Positions 1 through 20,401 of a stretch of 64,000 bases of DNA are shown here, piece by piece. Both the position numbers and the translations under genes were made by a program. The DNA lies in the NCBI RefSeq assembly GCF_014522305.1, contig NZ_CP041982.1, positions 191,001-255,000 on the forward strand, in the 5' to 3' direction. Position 1 is the stretch's first letter. Each line of letters starts with the position of its first letter. The notes beneath the pieces are model-generated. The model was not told the origin of the DNA. It was given only the letters and a program-made list of their open reading frames with translations, and did not search any database. Source of the stretch: Lactobacillus sp. PV034. GTDB lineage: Bacteria; Bacillota; Bacilli; Lactobacillales; Lactobacillaceae.

Positions 1-1
1 G

Positions 2-244
2 TTGTTTATACTTTCAGATGCTATGATGCCGATATCAATTTTTCCAAAATGGATGCAAACACTTGCAAATTATAATCCACTGTATAGACTAAATATTTTT
101 TTGAGATATTTTTGGAATACTGCTTCAAATATTTCAACGGAAAAGGTTCTTTTCTCTATTACTTATTTGAGTATTTTTATGGTGATATTTTTAATAATTG
201 TTGGATACAGATGGAACCAAGGACAGTACAGGAGTTATAAATGA
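2..244 (+). CDS. ABC-2 type transporter permease, C-terminal end (partial)
   Basis: The frame is open at the left edge, so only the last 80 or so residues of a longer protein are visible. They contain a short amphipathic stretch, the motif NYNPLYRLNIFLRYFWN, which resembles the 'NP' region before the last helix of ABC-2 permeases (drug/bacteriocin exporters), one strong membrane segment (about residues 50-68) and a short basic tail. The stop codon overlaps the ATG of the next gene (ATGA), so it is translationally coupled to the peptide-modification operon. Export of, or self-protection from, the modified peptide is inferred from this position. The ATP-binding partner must lie upstream. Confidence 0.6.
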   Translation: MFILSDAMMPISIFPKWMQTLANYNPLYRLNIFLRYFWNTASNISTEKVLFSITYLSIFMVIFLIIVGYRWNQGQYRSYK

Positions 245-2730
245 AAATAGAAATCCATCCGTTTACTCTTGAAAGAGAGAAACTACCCGATCATAATTTT
301 CTAGATACACATACTAAAGTATCATTTGAAAAAGATATTTTAGTAAAGGAAGCTATAGCTAAAGAAGAAGGAAACAAACTTGCTGATCAGATTAGTAATT
401 CTATATTTAGTAGAAATTCAAAGAAGAAAAAATTAATAAAAAAACTAAGAAATTTGGATTTAAATTTTGATTACGTTTCTACTTCGATAAATAAGGATAT
501 TAATTCAAGACTTAAAAAATTTCAAGATCAACTTGATAATATAAAGGAAGACAGAACTAGGTTATTGAATCAGATTGAATGTGACAACATCAGAACTAGA
601 CAAAGTCTTAAAAAACTATATTTGCATAATAAATCAATTTATAATTCTATTCAAATTATAAATCCAAACATTTATTCGAAATTAGATAAATATTTAAAAT
701 TGCCAGAAGAAAGCAAGAGCACCAGAAAACTTGAGCTAGTTCTGGCTCGGACAGCAAGCCATGCCTTAACAAAAACTAGTCCAATTGGTTTTTTAAATAA
801 AACACATATCAAAAGTAACCGTAATATACGGATAAGCAGTAAAATTACGAATACTATTTTACCAAATAATGTATTTCTATTATATTTGTATGAATTTTTT
901 TTACAACAAGATTGTATCCTTCCAAAAATTCAATTACGTAAAAATAGAAATTTTTATGTGAAAGATAATAATATATACCTTTTTGTTTTGAAAGATAATT
1001 TAATTAATAAAAAAACTTTTAAAACTAAAGATAGTTACATTAAAGTTAAAAGTAATTCGATGCTGCTTCATATTATAAATTCAAATAAAGAAATGTGGAA
1101 TTTAAAGGATATAGAAAGAACTTTCAAATTAAATAAAGAAGAAGCATTAAATTTTGAAAAAGAGCTCTTAAAATATGGTTTTTTGATGATTGATGATTAT
1201 TTTTGTGATGATTTAAATTCAATCGGTAATTTACTTCAAAAAATGGATCAGTATAAAGCAACATGGAACTCCACGATTTCCAACATTGTAAGTGAATTGG
1301 AGAAACTTAAATTACAATTCTCGCGTATTAATCGGGCTTACTCTTTAGAGTTACATAGAAAAATAATATCTACTTTTAACCGTATTTCTGCTATAGCAAA
1401 TCTACCCTCATTTGACAAAAATTCTCTTTTATATATAGATAATGTTACATGTGATAAAGAACCATTTAATGGAATTCAAAAATACAAGAATGTTTTTGAA
1501 AATATAGTAAAACTTTATCCAATTTTTGACATTAATACTAGGATACAGGAAGAGTTATTGTTTGAGTTAAAGAAAAAGAATAAGAAAATAGACTATCCAA
1601 TTGAAACTCCATGGCTATTTAATATGGTAGGAAATCTTAATCTTAAATTTCAATCATATTGGACTAATCCTAATCAATTGTTTAAATGTAAAAGTAATGT
1701 TAATCAAAAGTTAGAAATCTTAAAATTGAGATTTTTTGATTACATATTTAATTATGATTTAGATGAAACTCAGACTATCCAAATAACCCCTGAATTTTTG
1801 AAAAATCTTTATAGTGAGATCCCCTATCATTTAAAAAATAAGTCAGCTTCATATACTTTCTTTTATCAACTTGAAGATAAAAATATTGTAGTAAATAAGA
1901 TTTATCCAGGATATCAAAGTTTTTATAACCGATTTTTACGTTATACTGATATTCCTAAAAAACAAAAGCGAGAACTTGATAATTACTATAAAATTCTATC
2001 AACAGAGTTAGTGGATATAAATGAAACAGTCGGATTTAATGCAAACGCCTTTGTCCCGATATTAGATGGAAGACTTATATTTGATATCACCAGAGATAAG
2101 GCATTAAATAAAAAATATAAAAAAATCTACAATTTTCACGATCTCTTCTTAGTAGAAAAAAACGGTGAGTTTTTCTTAAAAGCGAAAACAGGAAAAGTAA
2201 TAAAGCCCGTAATAGGTACTAGCTTAATTAGGATATTATATCCTGGTAAGATTGCATTTTATTCATCTCTTTTTTCTAATATTTCTTTGATTAGTGATTT
2301 AGCTTGTCTATTTTTTAAAGATATCAAAAATAAAAAAATTATAAAAGCACCTCGTATAGTATATGAAAATATGATTCTGTCTAGAAAAATGATGTTGGTA
2401 GATACCAATATTTTTAAAAAAATTTTTTCTAAACAAAATGAATTGGAAATGTTTACCTATATTTCAGAGATTTTGACTAAAAATAAAATTCCTACTAAGT
2501 TTTTTTATCAAAGTAAGAAACGCAGAAGTGAAACTATAACCAGTATTTCTCAAGAATTTTCCAAACCTCAATATTTTGATTTAGAGAATGCTATGTTAGT
2601 AAAAGTATTTATAAATTCTCTTCGAACTAACAGTTATGTTTTGATTTCAGAGTTATATCCTGAAAATATAAAGTCTTCTGAATATATTACTGAATGGAAT
2701 CTAAAGGCAGAAGGTGATATTTGTGATTGA
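241..2730 (+). CDS. LanB-like dehydratase, glutamylation (N-terminal) protein of a split lantibiotic-dehydratase system
   Basis: This 829-residue protein looks like the large N-terminal part of LanB dehydratases, which use glutamyl-tRNA to glutamylate Ser/Thr of a precursor peptide. Visible hallmarks are the RTASHALTKTSPIGF stretch (about residues 176-190), equivalent to the 'R-tpFGlf' region of LanB proteins, long helical and coiled segments near 60-150, and a winged-helix-like piece around 270-330. No C-terminal elimination domain is fused, as in thiopeptide systems (TbtB/TclK type) where elimination is done by a separate small protein; a candidate lies at 7848. Very AT-rich. It overlaps the upstream permease by 4 bases and the downstream gene by 17. 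Confidence 0.82.
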   Translation: MKIEIHPFTLEREKLPDHNFLDTHTKVSFEKDILVKEAIAKEEGNKLADQISNSIFSRNSKKKKLIKKLRNLDLNFDYVSTSINKDINSRLKKFQDQLDNIKEDRTRLLNQIECDNIRTRQSLKKLYLHNKSIYNSIQIINPNIYSKLDKYLKLPEESKSTRKLELVLARTASHALTKTSPIGFLNKTHIKSNRNIRISSKITNTILPNNVFLLYLYEFFLQQDCILPKIQLRKNRNFYVKDNNIYLFVLKDNLINKKTFKTKDSYIKVKSNSMLLHIINSNKEMWNLKDIERTFKLNKEEALNFEKELLKYGFLMIDDYFCDDLNSIGNLLQKMDQYKATWNSTISNIVSELEKLKLQFSRINRAYSLELHRKIISTFNRISAIANLPSFDKNSLLYIDNVTCDKEPFNGIQKYKNVFENIVKLYPIFDINTRIQEELLFELKKKNKKIDYPIETPWLFNMVGNLNLKFQSYWTNPNQLFKCKSNVNQKLEILKLRFFDYIFNYDLDETQTIQITPEFLKNLYSEIPYHLKNKSASYTFFYQLEDKNIVVNKIYPGYQSFYNRFLRYTDIPKKQKRELDNYYKILSTELVDINETVGFNANAFVPILDGRLIFDITRDKALNKKYKKIYNFHDLFLVEKNGEFFLKAKTGKVIKPVIGTSLIRILYPGKIAFYSSLFSNISLISDLACLFFKDIKNKKIIKAPRIVYENMILSRKMMLVDTNIFKKIFSKQNELEMFTYISEILTKNKIPTKFFYQSKKRRSETITSISQEFSKPQYFDLENAMLVKVFINSLRTNSYVLISELYPENIKSSEYITEWNLKAEGDICD

Positions 2731-3775
2731 CCATTATAAAGTCTTCCTAAATGTATCTAGTCACAGTAAAAATAAATTTATTTGTAAGTATTTAATTCCA
2801 TTTCTTAGAAAAAACGTAAAGAGTGATTATTGGATTGAGCGTCATGTTGAAATTTTACCGGTGATTGACATTTATGTGATAAGAAAAAGATCATATAAAA
2901 ATGAATTTCCTTACTTAAAATCATTTAAAATATTACTCAATGATTTTAAGGAATCCTTAACTCTATCTGATCGTATGCCAAACAACGTTTATATTAATAG
3001 AAAAAATGATATTAGAAAAATGAATAGGCTGAAGAGAATCCATAGATTACCTCAAAATTTTTCTATCATGGCTGAATGTATTAGTTTTGTTAAGAGAAAA
3101 GGAGAATACACATATGCTGAAGAACCAATGATATATAATGATACATTTAGATTGTCAGAAAGATTATATGAAGATACATATCTATATCTTTATAACCATC
3201 CTCAACAAGAGATGCTTTTTATATTTGGTTTATTTTATTTTTCAGCAAAGAATTTAGATAAAACTGGTATTGGATTAGGATACAGATCGTACCAATCACA
3301 TGTTTTAGGCTTTTTAAGCTATAAAAAAGAAAATATGGACGGATATAAAAATTATTTTGAGGAGTACTATAAAGTAAATCATGCAATTCTTTTATCTTTT
3401 TATAAACTGATAAAAAATATGAATTCAGCATTAACTGATGATATTGAGTTATTAGCCTTAATAAGGCGATGGAAAAATGTACTGGATAAAACCTATGAAA
3501 AATTATTTTATGTTCAAAGAGATATTACTCTATCACTTGTACATGCAATTAGAAGAGAAATAGCACAAGCTAAATTTAGAGGATATTCTCAGTTTCATAA
3601 AGTCGTTTTCGATAAGAGACATAAATCTATGTTTAGTACAAAGGAATTTTGTGCATATAGGATGCTAGTAAACTTTACATATTTAATTTTACCAAATTTG
3701 GGTTTAAGTTCTAGAAAACGAGTTCAGGGTGGCTATATCTTAGTTAAAATTATGCAGGAAACTGAGGATAAGTGA
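2714..3775 (+). CDS. Divergent LanB-C-like protein, putative thiopeptide [4+2] pyridine synthase
   Basis: The protein has 353 residues and starts at a GTG (2714, or 2723 with AAGGTGA just ahead), overlapping the glutamylation gene. It fits the small LanB-C-like class found in thiopeptide clusters. The N-terminal part has the alternating strand pattern WIERHVEILPVIDIYVIRK, and the C-terminal half is helical. It lacks the HLRxR and ERYG motifs seen in the other small LanB-like protein at 7848, so by elimination it is the better candidate for the TbtD/TclM-type aza-cycloaddition enzyme that builds the central pyridine and releases the leader. Its length also fits that family as I recall it. The assignment is inference; an extra elimination protein is the alternative. 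Confidence 0.5.
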   Translation: MIFVIDHYKVFLNVSSHSKNKFICKYLIPFLRKNVKSDYWIERHVEILPVIDIYVIRKRSYKNEFPYLKSFKILLNDFKESLTLSDRMPNNVYINRKNDIRKMNRLKRIHRLPQNFSIMAECISFVKRKGEYTYAEEPMIYNDTFRLSERLYEDTYLYLYNHPQQEMLFIFGLFYFSAKNLDKTGIGLGYRSYQSHVLGFLSYKKENMDGYKNYFEEYYKVNHAILLSFYKLIKNMNSALTDDIELLALIRRWKNVLDKTYEKLFYVQRDITLSLVHAIRREIAQAKFRGYSQFHKVVFDKRHKSMFSTKEFCAYRMLVNFTYLILPNLGLSSRKRVQGGYILVKIMQETEDK

Positions 3776-3777
3776 TT

Positions 3778-4959
3778 ATGAAGAGGCTCTATTATCGTGG
3801 AAATGTGTTTTTAGCAAAAGATAAGAACTATACAGTTTTACGTATTGATAAAAAAGTATTTAAAATTCCTAAAGATAAATTTTTGTATGAAGATATTCTT
3901 TCAATTTTGACATCTTTGTCTACACCCAAAGATATAAGTCAAATTGATTCTTGTCAGTTATATCTTATTAAGTTTTTGCTTAAAGTAGGAGCACTAGTTT
4001 ATGATGAAATGCCTACTGAACTAAATTACATACAAGAATATTTTCTCCATAATTATAGTAATCCCAGTACAGTTTATAAAAAATGGATTAATACTGAGGT
4101 ATGTGTTTTAGGTAAAGGATTAAATTCTTCTGTTTTTGAAGATAAAAAAAAGTTTTTTATGAGCGCAGAATATGGGTTAGGTAAGAAGATCTTTGTAATA
4201 TATGGAAATACGAAATCTGAACTAAAGAAAAATCTTAGAGTTGCACGCAAATGCATAGACGACGGCGATATAATTCTTGTGTCTCCCATTTGGGTAGAAA
4301 ATGGAACTGTAGCAATAAGCTTTTATAACAGTTATAAGCATGCCAAGCAGTATGTAGAATCATTAAATTCAAAAAACACTTTTATGATGAATCATCTTAA
4401 AGAAAAAGTCATCATGAATTATATTTTCCTATTAGCTATGGATAGTCTTAGTGATCGACATAAGTTTAAGAATTTTTTTCTGATAAAAGACGACTTAGAA
4501 ATTAGAAATATCTCATTTACTCATTTTACAAAGAGAAATTTTATATTTAGAAATAAAAAAATAGATATTGATAAAGTATTTACCACTTCTGAGAGCATAA
4601 ATCATTTATTAGTTGCTAGCAATTTGATTGGAGAATTTAAGTTAAAAACTCACTACGATGATCCAAAAATTGGAAATTGTTCGTTATCTTTTAAGAGTTC
4701 CAACAAACTTTTGTTAAATTCACAAATAGAAGGCAAAAATCTAGAACAAACAATAAAAAAAGAAGTCATATCTGTTTTAAAAAAATACTTTAAATCCTAT
4801 GACTATGAAGTAGATGTTTTTAAATACTTTAAATCCTATGACTATGAAGTAGATGTTTTTATAGGAAAAGAGTCATTGCAAGAGAAGAACACTATAACTT
4901 CCGAATGGCTAATTTGGCCTGAAATGGAAGATTCTGGTGTTTTTATAAGAAAGAAATAA
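3778..4959 (+). CDS. Putative RRE/ThiF-like cyclodehydratase partner protein
   Basis: This gene lies 5 bases ahead of the YcaO gene. Start chosen at ATG 3778, ten bases after GAGG; a GTG at 3772 is in frame. The first 80 residues have the strand-strand-helix-helix-wing layout of a PqqD/RRE leader-binding domain (a hydrophobic EDILSILTSLSTPKDI stretch, then FLLKVGALVYDE). After that, VCVLGKGLNSSVF resembles a degenerate E1/ThiF nucleotide-binding strand and turn. The likely role is to bind the precursor leader and activate the YcaO enzyme. A perfect 39-base tandem duplication (4783-4860) repeats 13 residues near the C-terminus. Family membership is tentative because most of the protein is unfamiliar. 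Confidence 0.4.
   Translation: MKRLYYRGNVFLAKDKNYTVLRIDKKVFKIPKDKFLYEDILSILTSLSTPKDISQIDSCQLYLIKFLLKVGALVYDEMPTELNYIQEYFLHNYSNPSTVYKKWINTEVCVLGKGLNSSVFEDKKKFFMSAEYGLGKKIFVIYGNTKSELKKNLRVARKCIDDGDIILVSPIWVENGTVAISFYNSYKHAKQYVESLNSKNTFMMNHLKEKVIMNYIFLLAMDSLSDRHKFKNFFLIKDDLEIRNISFTHFTKRNFIFRNKKIDIDKVFTTSESINHLLVASNLIGEFKLKTHYDDPKIGNCSLSFKSSNKLLLNSQIEGKNLEQTIKKEVISVLKKYFKSYDYEVDVFKYFKSYDYEVDVFIGKESLQEKNTITSEWLIWPEMEDSGVFIRKK
4783..4860 (+). repeat. Perfect 39-bp tandem duplication inside the putative cyclodehydratase-partner gene
   Basis: Bases 4783-4821 and 4822-4860 are identical. The duplication is in frame and gives KYFKSYDYEVDVF twice in a row without disturbing the downstream frame. The lack of any divergence between the copies suggests a recent slippage or recombination event. 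Confidence 0.97.
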
Positions 4960-4964
4960 TTATT

Positions 4965-6539
4965 ATGTATGTGATTAATAATTTAGACAGAGAACTACTT
5001 TCAGCTAATAATCAAGATATTACTTATTTAAGGCAACAATATAAATTAAATCATAGGAGTAATGAAACGTGGATTAATGAGTGTGGAAAAGTAGAACAAA
5101 AACTTTTAAATGATTATACAAATTTTTTAGAAGGGAATACTGATAGCTTCGCGAGAGAATTTAATAATCTTACCTTGGAATGTAGAAAAATTAAAGCTGT
5201 TAATAAATCAAAAAACTCTAGTAAGATGATAATCAATGGAAAATTTCTACATAATTCCTGGAGAATAAAGGAAAATTTTAATTTTAAGAATTTAAAGATT
5301 AATTTTTATGATTATGATTATGGAATTATAACAAAGATTTACAAAGATTTGTATTCGAAAAAAATAGCTTTTGTTGGTGCAGAATTTATTGTAGATGAGC
5401 AAATAATTACGGCATATGGGAGAAACACTAGTTTTGATAAAGCAGAATCAGATTGTTTTTTAGAACTATTAGAGAGACATGCAATGTATGGTTTGCAAAA
5501 AAATAGCAAAAGTATGACTTATAGGCTAAATAAAAAGATATGTGTTAATCCAGCTGATTTTCTTTTTTACGTTGAGAAAAATTCTAAAGAACGGATAGAT
5601 TATGATAGTAAAGCAACCATCACATGGATAGAAGGCTTTGATTATAAAACTAAGAGAAAAATTTGGATTCCAAAACAATTTATTGACCTAAGTTTACCGG
5701 ATGAACCATATTTTACGGTACCTAATTCTTCTGGAGTTGCACTAGGATCTAGTTTGTATGAATCTCGCTTATATGCATTGATGGAATTAATTGAACGAGA
5801 TGCTTTTTTAACGTTTTGGCAAAAAGATGTGTGTCTTAGAGAAATACATTTAAAGTCTCTCCCCAAAGACATAAGAGAAAGAATAAAGGATATAGAAACG
5901 AAAAATGCTACTCTACACCTATATGATATGACGTTTGATATAAAAGTACCTACTGTTCTTGCGTTAATTATTTCTAATACTGGTCCTGTCTACCAATTTA
6001 TTTCTACTGCTACTCATCCTGATCCACTCGAAGCAATTTCTAAAGCTATAAATGAATGTATAGTAGGGTTTAATGTATATCAACATAACCGAGCAGTAGC
6101 TTCTAATAAATATAAAAGTGTAGATGATGTAAAAACATTATTTGATCACGTATGTTTTGCTTCAAAGCGTAGTTTCCGAAAAAATTATTCTAGTATTCTA
6201 AATGATGTAAAAAGTGACTGGAGAGCAATTTATAACAATAAAGCAGTAGAGGTATTAAAAAAATATGATAATCCTAAAGATTTACTTGATTATATTGTTA
6301 ATACATACCTTACTGATTATCAAATTTATTTTGTTGATATTACGGATAATTTGGCAAAGAGTTTTGGTCTGGCTGTCTCGAAAGTATTAATTCCCAGTTT
6401 TTCAAATATTAAATTTGGGTATGCAAATAGAACAGCATCAGTGGAAAGACTAGATTTTGCTTTGGAACATTCTTATTATCGAAATAGTTCTAAATTACGA
6501 AAAGGTGAGTTTATTGACCGAGTCCATCCTTACGCTTAA
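4965..6539 (+). CDS. YcaO-domain cyclodehydratase (azoline-forming)
   Basis: YcaO enzymes use ATP to cyclise Cys/Ser/Thr of a precursor peptide to thiazolines or oxazolines. The 524-residue protein carries the YcaO nucleotide-binding elements: a first acidic helix AESDCFLELLERHA (about 160-173), the NSSGVALGSS turn (about 250) and the second helix ESRLYALMELIERDAFLTFW (about 264-283). A further helix with HPDPLEAISKAINECIVG follows (about 347-364). The C-terminus ends HPYA rather than in the Pro-rich tail common in this family. The N-terminal 100 residues look like an added helical domain. It sits directly after its putative partner and overlaps the next gene, so it is part of one operon. With a dehydrogenase present, the final rings should be thiazoles/oxazoles. 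Confidence 0.9.
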   Translation: MYVINNLDRELLSANNQDITYLRQQYKLNHRSNETWINECGKVEQKLLNDYTNFLEGNTDSFAREFNNLTLECRKIKAVNKSKNSSKMIINGKFLHNSWRIKENFNFKNLKINFYDYDYGIITKIYKDLYSKKIAFVGAEFIVDEQIITAYGRNTSFDKAESDCFLELLERHAMYGLQKNSKSMTYRLNKKICVNPADFLFYVEKNSKERIDYDSKATITWIEGFDYKTKRKIWIPKQFIDLSLPDEPYFTVPNSSGVALGSSLYESRLYALMELIERDAFLTFWQKDVCLREIHLKSLPKDIRERIKDIETKNATLHLYDMTFDIKVPTVLALIISNTGPVYQFISTATHPDPLEAISKAINECIVGFNVYQHNRAVASNKYKSVDDVKTLFDHVCFASKRSFRKNYSSILNDVKSDWRAIYNNKAVEVLKKYDNPKDLLDYIVNTYLTDYQIYFVDITDNLAKSFGLAVSKVLIPSFSNIKFGYANRTASVERLDFALEHSYYRNSSKLRKGEFIDRVHPYA

Positions 6540-7827
6540 TCAAAAATATCAAGAACGATATATAAAGAAAAGATATGAGTTATTTAGGGAAGAAATTCTG
6601 CCAACCAATAGCAACTTGATTACATATGTTAATGAAGAAAAATATTATTTAAAATCAGGAACATTATTTGCACAGTTATTTGTTAAACTGTTTTCCCTTA
6701 ACTGGATGTCTGTAGAAAATCCATATGTATTCCATACTCTGTCTCCATCCGCTAGGGGGAAAAATTCTAATCGGATTATTTTAGAATACAAAGGATCATT
6801 GTTTGAATTTCACCTGAGCGGGAATTTTTTTAGATTAATTGTAGGAAAAGTACCAAAAAGCAATGATTTAGATATTGATTTAAAGGTAGCAAACATTTAT
6901 TTAGTAGGAGATATTAATAATATCGGCCATATTTATGGCTCTTTCGGTTGGACCTTATCCTTATTAGATGCAGGCCATCAAATTGAACATTGCAGACAAT
7001 TATCTATGCTCTACAAATTTAACGTTAGAATTAAACTATTTCCACAATATGAAATGAGTTCCCTGTGTTCTATTTACAATCAAAAAGAACTTTTTCCTAT
7101 TGTAAAGTTATATTTTTCTTCAAAAAAGAACAGTCTTTTTCCGATAGAAAGTAAAATCACTTGTAAACAAAAATTGCAAATGGAACCAAGTGGAGTTTTT
7201 GATGAAATATTGACTTATTTTATGCATTATTCTGGGAAAGAAATAACTTTAGAAAAAACGATGTTTTCTCGTTTTTCCTTTAATCAAATTCATAGGCGCA
7301 TGTCGGATCAATCTAATCAAGGATTATCATTTTTCCCATACTATATTAAAAGAAATGATTTAGTATCATTGGCTAAAATGGTAAAAGAACTGCTCCATTC
7401 TTTCAATCAAGAAATTGACATATATATTATCTCTAAAATTTCACCATTCAATAAAGAAAAATGGATAATTAATAAACATAGCATTCAGAGAGAGCCTGTT
7501 GATATATCCTTTAACCGAGTAATTCATGATTCACTCGACTTTTTGAATCCTCAAGAAGCAGCATTAGTAGTCTGGGCTTCAGTAAATAAAAGAAAATCCC
7601 ATAGCGATTCTATGAGTGATTGTGGGGAGTCTTTAATAGAAGCGGCCCGTTGTTTACACTGTATAAGTTTATTTTTTTCCGATTATGATAGGGAATTTAG
7701 AGTTCGTACTTTGAAAAATATTAATGAATTATTTTTTGAAAAAGTAGTATCACAGAATAAGAATTTGGCATTGTATATGCTTATTGGCGGAAAGTCAATG
7801 AATACACAAATGCAGATACCTATTTAG
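6514..7827 (+). CDS. SagB-like / nitroreductase-fold dehydrogenase, long form
   Basis: About 437 residues. I place the start at TTG 6514, five bases after AAAGGTGA, inside the end of the YcaO gene; an in-frame ATG at 6457 and GTG at 6505 are alternatives. The stretch YGSFGWTLSLLDAGHQIEHC (about residues 138-157) matches the central FMN-fold helix of SagB-type azoline dehydrogenases (compare 'G-R-aYR-al-eaGH-qNl'). The C-terminal half ends in a second, weaker copy-like section with LALYMLIGG. Azoline dehydrogenase, or a non-catalytic partner of the second SagB protein at 8665, are both possible. Standard FMN-binding Arg residues near the N-terminus are not obvious. Confidence 0.55.
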   Translation: MTESILTLNQKYQERYIKKRYELFREEILPTNSNLITYVNEEKYYLKSGTLFAQLFVKLFSLNWMSVENPYVFHTLSPSARGKNSNRIILEYKGSLFEFHLSGNFFRLIVGKVPKSNDLDIDLKVANIYLVGDINNIGHIYGSFGWTLSLLDAGHQIEHCRQLSMLYKFNVRIKLFPQYEMSSLCSIYNQKELFPIVKLYFSSKKNSLFPIESKITCKQKLQMEPSGVFDEILTYFMHYSGKEITLEKTMFSRFSFNQIHRRMSDQSNQGLSFFPYYIKRNDLVSLAKMVKELLHSFNQEIDIYIISKISPFNKEKWIINKHSIQREPVDISFNRVIHDSLDFLNPQEAALVVWASVNKRKSHSDSMSDCGESLIEAARCLHCISLFFSDYDREFRVRTLKNINELFFEKVVSQNKNLALYMLIGGKSMNTQMQIPI

Positions 7828-7847
7828 CATTGTGGAGGAACAAGAAT

Positions 7848-8672
7848 ATGTGGAAAGCAATATATTTTTATTTACACAGCGTACAACAGCAGGAAGCATT
7901 TTTAAGAGAAGCTAGCTATCTTCTAGAACACTACAATAATAAATGGTTTTTTATTAAATATTGGTATGGAGGTCCGCACCTTAGATTTAGATTTTTGAAT
8001 CCTAGTGATGAATTTTTGAACAGCTTTGATAAACTAGCAGCTGATTTTTCTCATCAATCGGTAGCTCCTATTATTTCTCCAACTGTATATTATTCAAATA
8101 TAAACTTTTCTAATGAAGGAATTGTTCCAAATAACTTGCCATGGCATAAGCATGGTACATGGTTTTATACAGAATATCAACCAGAATTTGAAAGATATGG
8201 TACTGGCACAGCTTTAGAACTTTCTGAGAACTTTTTCTTCGTATCAAGCAAACTAGCACTAAAAATAATTAAACTTTCGGATAATTTTTCTTTATCTAAA
8301 CGTATTGCAATAGCTTCCATAGTAATGAAAGAATTACTAAAAATAACAGATTGTTGGAAAGAATCCTTTTTAAAGCAATATTCAGACTACTGGAAGAGTT
8401 ATGACAATTTAAATGAATTATCAAAAAAGAATGTATATCTTATTACAAAAAAGTCAATTGGGATTCCTAATATTTTAGAAATTAAAGATTTTACTGATGA
8501 AATTAGCATTATATGGTCTGAGTTGTTAAAGGTTTTATCTTTTTCTGAAGCTCAATATGTATTAAGTTCTCAAATTCATATGAATAACAACCGTATATCT
8601 GTGACCCCTGAGTTTGAATATATAATTGCTAAATCATTGTCTAAATTAATCATGAGGAAAACGTATGAATAG
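7848..8672 (+). CDS. Small LanB-C protein, glutamate-elimination domain (thiopeptide-type bacteriocin biosynthesis)
   Basis: The start is ATG 7848 behind TGGAGG; an in-frame TTG at 7830 would overlap the ribosome site. The 274-residue protein shows the classical SpaB_C signature. GGPHLRFRF (about 41-49) supplies the Arg-x-Arg pair, and YQPEFERYGTGTALELSENF (about 110-129) matches the E-x-x-RYG element of elimination domains. These proteins remove glutamate from glutamylated Ser/Thr to give dehydroalanine/dehydrobutyrine. The pair with the 829-residue glutamylation protein makes a split LanB, typical of thiopeptides. It overlaps the next gene by 8 bases. Confidence 0.8.
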   Translation: MWKAIYFYLHSVQQQEAFLREASYLLEHYNNKWFFIKYWYGGPHLRFRFLNPSDEFLNSFDKLAADFSHQSVAPIISPTVYYSNINFSNEGIVPNNLPWHKHGTWFYTEYQPEFERYGTGTALELSENFFFVSSKLALKIIKLSDNFSLSKRIAIASIVMKELLKITDCWKESFLKQYSDYWKSYDNLNELSKKNVYLITKKSIGIPNILEIKDFTDEISIIWSELLKVLSFSEAQYVLSSQIHMNNNRISVTPEFEYIIAKSLSKLIMRKTYE

Positions 8673-9438
8673 TAAGAAATGGAAAAAAATTAGTTCTTCC
8701 TTTAGAGATTGGAATTCGATCAAAGAATTTCATGCAGGGTCAATGCATCTTATTTCAAATTTATCGGCTAATGGCATTAAAAGTATCGATCCTGAGATAA
8801 AGGATAAAGTAGGCGACATAAAATTAAAAAGATTTGGTGATATCCAGAATAATAAAACGCTTTCACTTAATGAGATATTACTTAAAAGGCGCACCAGTTG
8901 GAATTTTAAGTTTAATCTTGATTACAAGAAATTTTCAAATATACTATTAGATTCTTTTGCTCAAACAGACTCAATCATATTTAAAGGTCAAAAAGTTAAC
9001 CTGAGAGCTTATCCTTCTGCCGGCGCTCTATATTCGGTAGATGTATATATATGGACTCAACATTTGGGATCTAACATGGAACAAAAGATTTGGAAATTAC
9101 AGTTATCAAACAATTCATTGATTTTTATAAAAAAGGCCGCACTAGCAGAGATAGAAGAACTAACGTCTACTACTAAATTTAATGTACAAACTTTTAAAAA
9201 AGCTAATGTAGTTTTCTTTTTTGTTTCTAATTTAAAACTTTTATTTAAAAAATATGGTAGACTCGCATATCGATTAGCATTTTTAGAAAGTGGACACATG
9301 TGTGAGAATTTATATTTAAATTCTACTAAATATGATTTATCCATGGTTGCACTAGGAGGATTTTATGACCATCTTGTCGAAGATACTTTGAAGCTAACTG
9401 ATGACCAAATTTGTACTTACATGGCAGCAATAGGGTGA
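8665..9438 (+). CDS. SagB-type FMN-dependent azoline dehydrogenase
   Basis: The 257 residues form a full-length, clearly recognisable SagB/nitroreductase domain: an LKRRTSWNF phosphate-binding start (about 73-81), AYPSAGALYSVDVYIW (about 115-130), and GRLAYRLAFLESGHMCENLY (about 198-217) followed by an ALGGF loop. The reaction is FMN-dependent oxidation of thiazoline/oxazoline to the aromatic azole after YcaO action. The start ATG follows ATGAGG in the end of the elimination gene. It is the second SagB-like protein in the operon (see 6514) and is the one that keeps the usual motifs, so it is the more probable catalyst. Confidence 0.85.
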   Translation: MNSKKWKKISSSFRDWNSIKEFHAGSMHLISNLSANGIKSIDPEIKDKVGDIKLKRFGDIQNNKTLSLNEILLKRRTSWNFKFNLDYKKFSNILLDSFAQTDSIIFKGQKVNLRAYPSAGALYSVDVYIWTQHLGSNMEQKIWKLQLSNNSLIFIKKAALAEIEELTSTTKFNVQTFKKANVVFFFVSNLKLLFKKYGRLAYRLAFLESGHMCENLYLNSTKYDLSMVALGGFYDHLVEDTLKLTDDQICTYMAAIG

Positions 9439-9442
9439 TTAA

Positions 9443-10327
9443 ATGACAAATTATTATGTAGTCAATAAAGAACTATGTTTACTCCGAGAAAATAACATCA
9501 TAAAATTTTATAATTTGATAAATGATACAGTTATAGACGCAATTTCTATATCTAATACTAAATTAATATCATTTTTTTTGTCTCTTAATTATCCTCAATC
9601 AGTTAAGAGCAATCCACTTCTTAAGCAATTTATTTCATCAACTTTATTTAAGAAAAAACTAGGCAAATACTTTACTAACTACAGTACAACAATCTTAAAA
9701 AAAGAAAATCATTTTTATAAGCTATTGTATAATTTTACATCCAATTTCAATCAAGCATTTGAACTGACGGAAGGAGGATTGTTATGCTTGGTTAAAAAGG
9801 CCATTCTTTTTACTAAAGTATATTTGGTCGATGCAGAGAATTCATTAATAATTGATGGACTAAATATTAAAAGCATAAGTATTGATGAAGCAATAGAACT
9901 GGCCCTCAAGCATCTACATACTGAAAGCTTTAGATATGAATTATATATTATAGTTCCAAATTCTTCTCATAAATCTAAATTAAAAAAATTAGAAGCAATA
10001 TTCAGTACTAATCGTGTTACTAGAGTCTACGTCCAAGAAAATAGATACTATTTAAAAATAGGCCCTTGTCTTGTTGGCAATGATTATGGGTGCTTCTTTT
10101 GTAGAGAAAACTATCTAGATAACTCGAATCCTTCTCTAGATAATAATCTCTTAAATGCATTGTTAAGCGAGGAAATTCCTAAACTTTTTCCTTTACTTCT
10201 TGAAAGTACAATAAAGAACTATACGATTTCAGGGGGTAAAATATTTAAATTATATAAGTTCAATTTAAGTGCGGAAGAAGAAGAATACCTAAATAATCAA
10301 AAGTGTAGTATCCATAAATTAAAATAG
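9443..10327 (+). CDS. Ocin-ThiF-like leader-binding protein (TOMM maturation)
   Basis: 294 residues. The motif IGPCLVGNDYGCFFCRENYL (about 211-230) corresponds to the 'GP-lv-p----Cf-C---r' element of ThiF-like proteins that present precursor leaders to YcaO enzymes, with a CxxC pair (about 222-225) and a second Cys near the C-terminus (KCSIHK) as possible zinc ligands. In thiopeptide systems (TclI/TbtF type) this protein binds the leader and supports cyclodehydration. It lies 4 bases after the dehydrogenase. How it shares work with the putative RRE protein at 3778 is unclear. Confidence 0.6.
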   Translation: MTNYYVVNKELCLLRENNIIKFYNLINDTVIDAISISNTKLISFFLSLNYPQSVKSNPLLKQFISSTLFKKKLGKYFTNYSTTILKKENHFYKLLYNFTSNFNQAFELTEGGLLCLVKKAILFTKVYLVDAENSLIIDGLNIKSISIDEAIELALKHLHTESFRYELYIIVPNSSHKSKLKKLEAIFSTNRVTRVYVQENRYYLKIGPCLVGNDYGCFFCRENYLDNSNPSLDNNLLNALLSEEIPKLFPLLLESTIKNYTISGGKIFKLYKFNLSAEEEEYLNNQKCSIHKLK

Positions 10328-10337
10328 GAGAAAACCA

Positions 10338-10763
10338 ATGAATGCTATAGTTCATATAAAATTAAATTTGATAATTAGTACTATTGTGGGCTTATTAGTA
10401 GCATTATTTTTTATATTTTTACCTAATATTGCTAGTATTTTACCTGCTAGGATTAGTAATACTCTAAATAATATCTATAATTTGAAGAGTTGGTCTCAGC
10501 TTATACCATTGTATATAGTCATTTTCTTTGTTGGACTAGCAAAAAACATATCTTCTCTGTATTCTAATAATAAAATGATTTTATTAATTTTATTATTGTT
10601 GGATATTGTTCAAATAATGTTGTTTTTATTCTTATTTTTAGACACTCCTTTTTTTAATAAGAATTATTTATATATTTCAAAATCAAGTCAATTTATTTTT
10701 ATCTTTGCATTTTCTATAGTGTTTGGATTTGAGATAATTGGAGATTTAATTAGATTACTGTAA
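10338..10763 (+). CDS. Small integral membrane protein, possible immunity protein
   Basis: 141 residues with four predicted membrane segments (about 9-33, 55-75, 80-102, 118-138) and no recognisable domain. It is the last gene of the biosynthetic operon, has a good ribosome site (AGGAG, 7-8 bases ahead) and is followed directly by a terminator. A terminal membrane protein in a bacteriocin operon often gives immunity or helps export; that is only positional inference here, because thiopeptide resistance normally acts at the ribosome. Confidence 0.45.
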   Translation: MNAIVHIKLNLIISTIVGLLVALFFIFLPNIASILPARISNTLNNIYNLKSWSQLIPLYIVIFFVGLAKNISSLYSNNKMILLILLLLDIVQIMLFLFLFLDTPFFNKNYLYISKSSQFIFIFAFSIVFGFEIIGDLIRLL

Positions 10764-10784
10764 GTTTTAATTTTATATAGAAAC

Positions 10785-10823
10785 AGCTAGTGTTATTTGT
10801 AGATAATGACACTAGCTATTTTT
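10785..10823 (+). terminator. Rho-independent terminator ending the thiopeptide operon
   Basis: A 13-bp stem (AGCTAGTGTTATT paired with AATGACACTAGCT, one G-T pair) with a 7-base loop is followed by ATTTTTAT. It separates the biosynthetic operon from the plasmid-type genes. Confidence 0.85.
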
Positions 10824-18468: not shown

Positions 18469-18509
18469 TCTTTTATAATTAATAAAAAAGATAATTAGGA
18501 TGGTTTGTG

Positions 18510-19349
18510 ATGTCTGAAGAACTTAATCTCATTGAAATTAGTGACGAAGATCAAAATAAGAAATTGAGTACCATTGTCAAGATGGATAATGATCTGCTAG
18601 TAAAAGGATTTCCTAATTTTTCCAAAAAGTGGACGCCCTTTGATATTGACTGGTGGAATATCATTGATTCTCAGGTTCTCGATCAAAAAGATAATCTAAT
18701 CAAAATTCCAATTTCTAAAGTAAAAGAATTAATGTATTTTAGAAAACATATAACAAATGATGAATTTATCAAAAAATCGAATGATACATTGAAGAAATTT
18801 ATGACTATTCAGGCCAGCTTGGAACAAGAAGATGGGGACAAAAAGATATATATGAATGTTAATATCTTTAGCCAATCTTATATCGATACTGATTACAATG
18901 CTTGGATTAGAGTTTCACCACAGGCAACAAAGTATTTCAATAATTTATCGCAATGGACGAGATTTGCCTTAGAACAAGCCACTCGACTTCATACCTCATA
19001 TTCAAAGAAGTTGTTTATGTATTTAAAGCAATGGCGTACGGTAGGCAAAAAGACATTTACCTTAGAGGAATTTAGAAATGCCCTTGATGTACCTAAGAGC
19101 TATCGTCCCGGAAGTATTGACCAAAAAATACTCAATCCGACAGCAGAATATTTAGCGCCGTACTTTATGAATTTTCGAATTACTAAGAATTATTCTAAGG
19201 GAATTCGAGGAAGAAAATTAATTGGTTATACCTTTACTTTTAGACCGGAATCTAAAACGCAAAAAGATGTGGGTTATAATAAGCGCATTGAAGAAATTAC
19301 TCATCTGTATTCAATTATGACGAACACTTTCTTAAAAGTCGCAAGGTAA
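18510..19349 (+). CDS. repA: RepA, Rep_3-family theta replication initiator
   Basis: 279 residues from ATG 18510 (GTG 18507 is also in frame; AGGATGG lies seven bases ahead). It shows the two winged-helix layout of Rep_3 initiators: IKIPISKVKELMYFRKHITN (about 69-88), then the second domain with TRLHTSYSKKLFMYLKQWRT (about 165-184) and FTLEEFRNALDVPKSY. It binds the iterons and opens the origin. The C-terminal end (THLYSIMTNTFLKVAR) may be cut short, because T-box leader sequence begins within about 10-50 bases of its stop; the plasmid-chromosome joint is therefore at or just inside its 3' end. Confidence 0.88.
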   Translation: MSEELNLIEISDEDQNKKLSTIVKMDNDLLVKGFPNFSKKWTPFDIDWWNIIDSQVLDQKDNLIKIPISKVKELMYFRKHITNDEFIKKSNDTLKKFMTIQASLEQEDGDKKIYMNVNIFSQSYIDTDYNAWIRVSPQATKYFNNLSQWTRFALEQATRLHTSYSKKLFMYLKQWRTVGKKTFTLEEFRNALDVPKSYRPGSIDQKILNPTAEYLAPYFMNFRITKNYSKGIRGRKLIGYTFTFRPESKTQKDVGYNKRIEEITHLYSIMTNTFLKVAR

Positions 19350-19357
19350 TTCTCATT

Positions 19358-19449
19358 AGAGAGCTACTTACTAAGGTTATTTATGTAAATAAATAATAAA
19401 TTAAGGTGGTAACACGAAGCACTCGTCCTTATTGGATGAGTGCTTTTTT
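19358..19449 (+). promoter_or_regulatory. Partial T-box leader (antiterminator/terminator half only) before mmuM
   Basis: AAGGTGGTAACACG (19403-19416) is the conserved T-box sequence; its AAGG can pair with CCTT (19427-19430) as antiterminator. The competing terminator is AAGCACTCGTCC (19417-19428) with GGATGAGTGCTT (19434-19445) and a T-run. AGAGAG (19358-19363) resembles the 3' strand of the Stem I base. The 5' part of Stem I would have to lie inside repA, so the tRNA-reading half appears lost. The downstream genes suggest the intact leader sensed methionyl-tRNA supply. Confidence 0.8.
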
Positions 19450-19471
19450 GTTTGAAATAGGAGGTATCGTG

Positions 19472-20401
19472 ATGACAATTTTTGAAGAAGCTAAAAAAGG
19501 TTTAGTGCTTGATGGAGCAATGGCTGATGAGTTACAAAGACAAGGAACAAATTTAAATAGTAAACTTTGGACCGCAGCTGCCCTGATTGATCAAGAAGAA
19601 AAAGTTTATCAAGCTCATTTAAATTATTTCAAAGCAGGTGCCAATCTTGTAATCACTGATACTTATCAGGCTAATGTTCCCGCTTTTATAAAAGCAGGCT
19701 ACAGTCAAAAACAAGCAGCAAGCTTTATTAAACAGGCGGTTAAAATTGCTAAACAGGCAAGAGATGATTATGAAAAACAAACAGGTATCCATAATTATGT
19801 AGTAGGTACTGTGGGACCATATGGTGCTTACTTGGCCGATGGTAATGAATATCGAGGAGATTATGAATTAAGTAAGCAAGAATATTTGGATTTTCATTTA
19901 CCAAGATTAAAGTTAATTTTATCTGAGGAGCCAGATTTAATTGCAGTTGAAACACAGCCTAAATTAGATGAGACGCTCGTTTTACTTGATTGGTTAACTC
20001 AAAATGCACCAAAAGTACCAGTCTATGTAAGCTTTACTTTGAAAAATGAAACGACAATTAGTGATGGAACTTCTTTAGCTCAGGCAGCTCAAGTAGTAGA
20101 TAACTATGATCAAGTGATTGGAATTGGGATTAATTGTGTGGCTCCAAATTTGGTGACGCCAGCTTTGGAATTGTTAAATAAAAATACAACAAAGCCTTTA
20201 ATTGTCTATCCTAACCAAGGAGCAAGTTATAATCCAGAAATTAAAGAGTGGGAAGAAGTTAAAGAGAACTTTGATTTTTCGAAATTGACTAAAATTTGGT
20301 ATGAAAAAGGTGCACGTTTGATTGGGGGATGTTGCACTACGGGTCCCAAAGAAGTTAACCAGATAAGTACAACCTTGAATGAACTTAAAGAAAGAAGGTA
20401 A
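19472..20401 (+). CDS. mmuM: Homocysteine S-methyltransferase
   Basis: Transfers a methyl group from S-methylmethionine to homocysteine, giving methionine. The start is ATG 19472 behind AGGAGGT; an upstream in-frame ATG at 19406 lies inside the T-box and is not used. 309 residues, normal for MmuM. The zinc ligands are visible as NCV (about 214-216) and GGCCTTGP (about 279-286). [13 protein letters not shown] (about 11-23) is the conserved start of the barrel. It forms an operon with the permease 5 bases downstream, under the truncated T-box. Confidence 0.93.

Follow-up and report, generated by a model that had tools for sequence, protein, structure and literature searches.

The 64,000-nt stretch of Lactobacillus sp. 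PV034 analyzed here (the window; bases 191001 to 255000 of C1, the host's single 1.58-Mb contig), read together with the DNA immediately to its left, very probably carries a complete gene cluster for a pyridine-centered thiopeptide, the class and the enzyme roles being assigned from sequence. Present by sequence are a precursor, an exporter, a split LanB, a pyridine synthase homologue, a YcaO cyclodehydratase, a probable E1-like partner, and both a canonical and a divergent SagB-type protein. The biosynthetic genes, at window positions 241 to 10763, lie on one strand, are all open, and overlap or nearly abut. The same DNA is found with 99.9% identity on two Lactobacillus johnsonii plasmids, pLJPF01L (25.8 kb) and LJBSp1, and the reading frames are therefore unlikely to be an assembly artifact. 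The initial annotation had proposed an operon for a pyridine-forming thiopeptide. Open reading frame (ORF) and family searches found the named genes present, open, and codirectional, and the proposal gains further support from a precursor gene upstream and from the pyridine synthase homologue.

The precursor gene was found by looking to the left of the window for a short Cys/Ser-rich gene, as had been suggested. It encodes 63 aa and lies about 1.25 kb upstream (C1:189555-189746, with 1,254 bases between it and the window). Its C terminus reads SSGSSSCNSCSCCASTSCCSVHIHL, and the protein matches the NCBIfam thiazolylpeptide precursor model NF033400 (59.9 bits versus a cutoff of 30) and also TIGR03892 (34.1 bits versus a cutoff of 25). 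The plasmid copy bears the product name thiazolylpeptide-type bacteriocin, which means that annotation already recognizes this gene. The core is SCNSCSCCASTSCC, to which all core numbering below refers, and it is followed by the tail SVHIHL. Directly 3′ of the gene is a terminator-like hairpin (a consensus match only), which would yield the precursor in excess over the enzymes.

As the initial annotation had it, LanB is split, by homology, into an 829-aa glutamylation protein of the TclK type (241 to 2730, plus strand) and a 280-aa elimination protein (7830 to 8672, plus strand; 274 aa from the second Met). The larger protein has no Pfam or NCBIfam match over cutoff. It groups with thiopeptide LanBs both by BLAST and in a tree, matches PDB entry 6ec7 (a lantibiotic dehydratase domain protein according to its record, which we take to be TbtB; E = 2e-4), and is expected to use Glu-tRNA to glutamylate Ser and Thr residues of the core. 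The smaller protein contains both the HLRxR motif (as PHLRFR) and the ERYG motif, matches PF14028 (E = 5e-31) and TIGR03891, both over cutoff, and would remove the glutamate to leave dehydroalanine. The separation of the two genes had been considered unusual, but the clusters of Streptococcus salivarius DB-B5 and Sutcliffiella DSM 8719 separate them likewise, and in the same order. The 353-aa protein (2714 to 3775, plus strand), previously described as small and LanB-C-like, is a homologue of pyridine synthases of the TbtD/PbtD type and would carry out macrocyclization and leader elimination. It matches the pyridine synthase model NF045556 (E = 2e-19) and, on its own, TbtD in PDB (E = 0.002); a profile of the six-member family, drawn from the related clusters described below, gives matches to PbtD (E = 2e-10) and to TbtD (E = 4e-7), which bears out the earlier description. 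The sequence homology to PbtD/TbtD and 6ec7 in these PDB searches is distant (E = 2e-10 to 2e-4). Motifs GYxSxxSH, FH, and YR are invariant in this family across all six clusters.

The YcaO cyclodehydratase (524 aa; 4965 to 6539, plus strand) matches PF02624 over cutoff (E = 5e-49) and TIGR03604 with 171 bits (E = 3e-50), under that model's cutoff of 219; a search of the host genome for a further YcaO gave this one match in total. Two leader-binding partners had been suggested for it. The suggestion is partly supported. For the 395-aa protein (3772 to 4959, plus strand), there is a low-confidence fold match: its model (pLDDT, 57) matches TruD, MccB, and one McbBCD chain (E = 1e-7 to 2e-5; TM score, 0.2 to 0.4), making it a probable E1-like, leader-binding YcaO partner. 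NCBIfam searches with its family gave nothing credible. This gene carries a 39-bp in-frame tandem duplication that is missing from the plasmid copies compared. For the 294-aa protein (9443 to 10327, plus strand), which contains IGP...DYGCFFC, there is one weak match to TIGR03882 (E = 0.05) among five family members and an IGP motif that the family shares with the same-place proteins of three other clusters; it is a possible second E1-like or leader-binding partner. F and C partners are described in thiopeptide clusters in passages of PMC4603692.

Two dehydrogenase-like proteins accompany this set. The 257-aa SagB flavin mononucleotide dehydrogenase (8665 to 9438, plus strand) matches TIGR03605 (E = 4e-27) and the Pfam nitroreductase model, both over cutoff, and has the motif KY...ESGH; [KR]Y and ExGH occur in nine of nine SagB proteins. 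The 456-aa protein (6457 to 7827, plus strand; annotated with a 437-aa start in its plasmid copy) is a second, divergent SagB/nitroreductase-type protein, as had been noticed earlier. TIGR03605 is matched by two of five family members (best E = 7e-8), the window's own not among them, and the Pfam nitroreductase model by one of five. In Foldseek, the model of the window protein (pLDDT, 55) aligns over 508 columns with 3eo7, a 487-residue putative nitroreductase (E = 1e-11; root mean square deviation, 16.7), and also matches BmdB-BmdC and McbBCD entries, a result that we read as two nitroreductase-like halves. All six 456-type proteins have DxGH, and in one of the six the motif Tyr is preceded by Lys, to which microcin B17 work gives a catalytic role. 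These counts exclude the proteins of G339 and pBac115, in which the pattern found nothing. Searches of PDB with profiles of the 456-, 395-, and 294-aa families gave nothing credible (best E = 0.41, 0.11, and 0.098, respectively).

Clusters with the same gene order occur in other bacteria. Hits to NF045556 were obtained in 6 of the 395 genomes searched in the order, the window's own among them, and in 16 of 398 in the class. A scan of genome contigs with the YcaO alignment covered the best 80 of 400 relatives, and six of those loci were annotated (L026 to L031). Among these, four have the same order: L027 in a Lachnospiraceae genome, L028 in Gracilibacillus orientalis, L029 in Bombilactobacillus apium, and L030 in Enterococcus ureasiticus, the last being by length and sequence the same contig as locus L021 of genome G128. 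A fifth, L023, is in G242, of the same genus as G128 (Enterococcus). With the window, this gives six clusters that run precursor, ATP-binding cassette (ABC) gene, ABC gene, LanB, pyridine synthase, 395-type, YcaO, 456-type, elimination, SagB, and 294-type. All six fall on one side of a branch with 100/100 support in trees of 14 chosen YcaO and 13 chosen LanB sequences, and lactocillin and micrococcin fall outside in both. Their seven precursors (two in E. ureasiticus) share the consensus SSC[NDT]SCSCC[AIL]STSCC, followed by variable tails. The core is therefore nearly invariant across L. johnsonii plasmids, Enterococcus, Bombilactobacillus, Lachnospiraceae, and Gracilibacillus, whereas the enzymes of the related clusters are only 25 to 40% identical, which suggests selection on one product. 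Within the genus, a full-length YcaO match occurs in 1 of 75 genomes, the window's own, with four partial matches (E = 6e-10 to 8e-5). When plasmid records were searched by tblastn for the pyridine synthase, the two L. johnsonii plasmids were the only ones to match, and a scan of viral contigs for this enzyme found none. One of the six genomes of the order with an NF045556 match, G230 (E = 1e-4), was not counted as having a cluster, since blastp at E = 1e-3 showed no thiopeptide genes in the surrounding 16 kb, only ABC ATPase matches.

Some side observations concern these loci. Downstream of the 294-type gene, L023, L027, and L030 encode another YcaO (540 to 544 aa) and a 316- to 385-aa protein without a family, and L028 has a 382-aa protein only. 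The best NCBIfam match of the extra YcaO, in the two that were scanned, is YcaO_for_S12, below cutoff. L026 belongs to a metagenome-assembled genome named Clostridium sp. SUG910, and its contig, which over 19 kb shares 99.98% identity with the L. johnsonii plasmid, is probably misbinned.

The spacing of the core resembles that of lactazole A (laz, Streptomyces lactacystinaeus). According to passages of PMC7210931, lactazole has a 32-membered ring, for which Ser1, Ser10, Ser11, Ser12, and Cys13 are needed, and residues beyond the ring, up to at least position 16. From the same passages, a pattern of 10 positions was taken (Ser1, Ser4, Cys5, Ser6, Cys7, Ala9, Ser10 to Ser12, and Cys13), position 1 being the second of the two Ser residues that precede the first core Cys. 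The window precursor agrees at all 10 positions (with Ser/Thr at 11), as do those of L028, L029, and one scored precursor of L030; the precursors of L027 and L023 agree at nine, and the lactocillin and micrococcin cores at four each. Because the core spacing is that of lactazole, a 32-membered ring is predicted, by analogy and with moderate confidence. The likeness is one of core spacing. The window core differs in having Cys at positions 2, 8, and 14, and the cluster in having an extra long dehydrogenase-like protein and separate genes for the 280-aa elimination protein and the 257-aa SagB in place of the fused LazF.

The tail varies together with one enzyme. In four of four clusters with a short-chain dehydrogenase/reductase (SDR) gene (L027, L028, L030, and L023/L106), the tail ends in Thr, and these SDRs are 26 to 34% identical to the SDR of pBac115. 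The record for that protein reads SDR oxidoreductase; we take it to be TclP, which presumably acts on the C-terminal Thr. The two clusters with a tail ending in His-Leu (window) or His-Ile (L029) have neither an SDR nor a terminal Thr, and tblastn of the four SDRs against C1:187601-210400 gave a best E value of 0.018. The pairing, suggestive only with six cases, suggests that the tail SVHIHL is kept in the window product.

From these parts, the following pathway can be proposed. The 395-aa protein, perhaps together with the 294-aa protein, would bind the leader while YcaO cyclizes the six core Cys residues and probably Thr11, and the dehydrogenase or dehydrogenases would then make thiazoles and a methyloxazole by oxidizing the azolines. 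Ser1, Ser4, Ser6, Ser10, and Ser12 would become dehydroalanine through the joint action of LanB and the elimination protein. The 353-aa enzyme would then join dehydroalanines 1 and 12 into the pyridine, closing the 32-membered ring and expelling the leader, and the ABC-2 pump would export the product. The calculated mass of this form, with seven azoles, five dehydrations, and the full tail, is 1778.467, compared to 1865.499 for a 35-membered form and 1179.112 for a product cut after SCCS. The same mass rule gives 1143.2101 for micrococcin P1. More tentatively, the six clusters may form an uncharacterized Bacillota thiopeptide family with a lactazole-sized ring, up to six thiazoles, a heteromeric dehydrogenase pair, and an evolvable tail. 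In such a family, the long partner, mostly without the catalytic Lys, may serve as a scaffold or oxazoline handler; some hosts would use a TclP-like enzyme to process the terminal Thr; and the retained His-X-His-X tail of the window host and Bombilactobacillus could bind metal.

Several results weigh against this interpretation and bear on its alternatives. Concerning the ring, a score of 10 was attained by 10 of 200,000 shuffles that preserved the composition of the 25 window residues, but this figure is optimistic because the lactazole pattern was picked after the core was seen. Outside the group, the pattern scores 8 in G339, 6 in Lactobacillus curvatus, and 5 each in G067 and S. salivarius. 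In an ungapped alignment, the precursor of L022 has Gly where the Ser that starts a 32-membered ring is expected, and since all six clusters have two Ser residues before the first core Cys, a 35-membered ring from the neighboring Ser, or a 26-membered one, may form instead. A thiopeptide with one of these ring sizes, with SVHIHL trimmed, or both, is a possibility that we take seriously while preferring the first form; the variability of the tail is in its favor, while the lactazole spacing, the Thr-ending tails where a TclP-like enzyme is present, and the likeness of SVHIHL and SVHFHI in two genera argue for a 32-membered ring and a retained tail. For the enzymes, the NF045556 score of the 353-aa protein is far under cutoff (69.8 versus 325 bits), a cutoff passed by none of the 398 genomes of the class, and L029 has, at the place of the 395-aa protein, a 297-aa protein without a BLAST match at E = 1e-3, assigned to that type by place and alignment only. 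YcaO, SagB, and ABC exporters also occur in clusters for linear azole(in)e peptides, so that a simpler product of that type, without a pyridine, could be considered. The thiazolylpeptide precursor, the split LanB, and the pyridine synthase homologue with motifs invariant in all six clusters make this very improbable. The helix-turn-helix (HTH) regulator gene (L002:16532-17375) is in two frames in the host genome, the plasmid rep gene is likewise split, and the integrated plasmid lacks 3.2 kb that pLJPF01L has, as might be seen in a decaying, silent remnant left after plasmid integration. This we consider unlikely, as every gene for biosynthesis, precursor, and export has an open frame and the free plasmids match the region with 99.9% identity.

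The initial annotation had also raised the possibility of the lactocillin cluster or a relative of it, and the gene-by-gene comparison with the JV-V03 cluster (L006; plasmid NZ_CP040501) led us to reject this almost entirely. Both clusters have the same enzyme classes and a location on plasmids of lactobacilli, with a shared integrase neighborhood: at L006:18435-22794, the lactocillin plasmid has an integrase and downstream DNA about 82% identical to the window plasmid, with a different thiopeptide cluster beside them. Yet the JV-V03 core is SCTTCTCCCSCCA, the gene order is precursor, 229-aa, YcaO, LanB, LanBC, 261-aa, and 455-aa, and its carrier, AMP-binding, and hydrolase genes for the indolyl group, like its TipAS gene, have no counterpart among the window cluster genes. 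Passages of PMC5585349 give LclI as the lactocillin carrier, LclJ as the adenylating enzyme, and LclK as the hydrolase. The YcaO proteins are 22% identical, JV-V03 lies outside the window's tree group, and the single YcaO match in the host genome speaks against a second such cluster. Profiles of the 395- and 294-aa families found nothing in the 229-aa lactocillin protein. The 455-aa lactocillin protein, which has KY and DTGH, aligns with the 456-type profile only over 28 columns around FGxxLSLxDxGH (probability, 9%).

Other known systems are also distinct. A tblastn search of plasmid records with YcaO matched 174 records, of which seven were fetched, including the JV-V03 plasmid and pBac115. 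The pBac115 cluster (NZ_KM613043), whose compound we take to be of the micrococcin type and whose last SDR we take to be TclP, has the same enzyme classes, and a homologue of that SDR is present in four of the clusters related to that of the window. It differs in its core (SCTTCVCTCSCCTT), its own L11 gene, and a single TclN-type dehydrogenase. Both an L11 copy and an SDR are absent from the window cluster, and a search of the host genome for an L11 immunity copy gave one L11 match. Plasmid clusters of S. salivarius DB-B5 and L. curvatus WDN19 share the AASSG leader end, and the DB-B5 order (LanB, 358-aa, partner, YcaO, LanBC, and SagB) is like that of the window, but these clusters have other cores, an M20 peptidase, and no 456-aa protein. 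A 456-type protein is missing from the Sutcliffiella DSM 8719 cluster as well; G339 carries a 389-aa relative of it.

Titles, abstract openings, and openly available passages on thiopeptides of lactobacilli, Enterococcus, and Firmicutes name no product of the window cluster, and passages of PMC11594732 and PMC10134562 contain nothing on it. For bee gut peptides, the cluster treated in passages of PMC10673953 is from Gilliamella rather than Bombilactobacillus. Thiopeptides made by lactobacilli matter for microbiome competition, lactocillin being the one named in the literature passages. With the compact, plasmid-borne set described here, it can be tested how ring size is chosen and whether two azoline dehydrogenases are needed.

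The remaining genes concern export, immunity, and regulation. An ABC ATPase gene (C1:189789-190490, outside the window to the left) precedes the gene of the ABC-2 exporter permease (255 aa; Pfam ABC2_membrane, E = 2e-24), which starts 524 bases left of the window and has its C-terminal end at 1 to 244 (plus strand); matches of these exporter genes to drrA/drrB-like models stay below cutoff. At the other end, a candidate immunity protein of 141 aa (10338 to 10763, plus strand), hydrophobic as judged by eye, has no family match in Pfam or NCBIfam. The HTH regulator is intact in L026 (280 aa) and on the plasmids, and it is weakly similar to Lmo0325 (E = 0.014) and to a MutR-family regulator (E = 0.055). 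Between regulator and precursor lies a 16-aa ORF (L002:17456-17506) that has a ribosome-binding site and encodes MTWWQLPVIFFNNLFK. This peptide may be a pheromone that acts with the regulator as an Rgg/ComR-like pair; the same scan saw no comparable ORF upstream of the other clusters.

In this host, the plasmid is chromosomal. An entire L. johnsonii-type plasmid, of the rep_cluster_324 type, fills C1:187682-210336 (22.7 kb) and is opened inside its rep gene, the parts of which lie at window positions 18507 to 19349 and at L002:15616-16221; the 3.2 kb by which it is shorter than pLJPF01L is missing from its inside. In a sister genome (G788, 59% complete; L135), the two flanks are 2 bases apart, an empty site, and the insertion is therefore real. 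It splits a T-box leader (window positions 19279 to 19433; L135:1099-1344) that scores 97.9 bits in the sister genome (gathering threshold, 93) and 39.2 bits here. The gene behind the split T-box (19406 to 20401) is homocysteine S-methyltransferase-like, judged by eye alone. Plasmid p9785L of L. johnsonii FI9785 shares this backbone but lacks the cluster, the missing stretch beginning shortly ahead of the precursor and ending within the 294-aa gene. It keeps the regulator, the 141-aa gene, and the integrase, and 15 bases at the junction (L108, around 5285 to 5299) are common to both sides. The remnant of the 294-aa gene on p9785L points to deletion of the cluster, and retention of the 141-aa gene without the biosynthetic genes would fit a role in immunity. 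LJBSp1 (L004) contains the plasmid twice, as near-copies of which the second has diverged slightly, and this double copy is possibly an assembly dimer.

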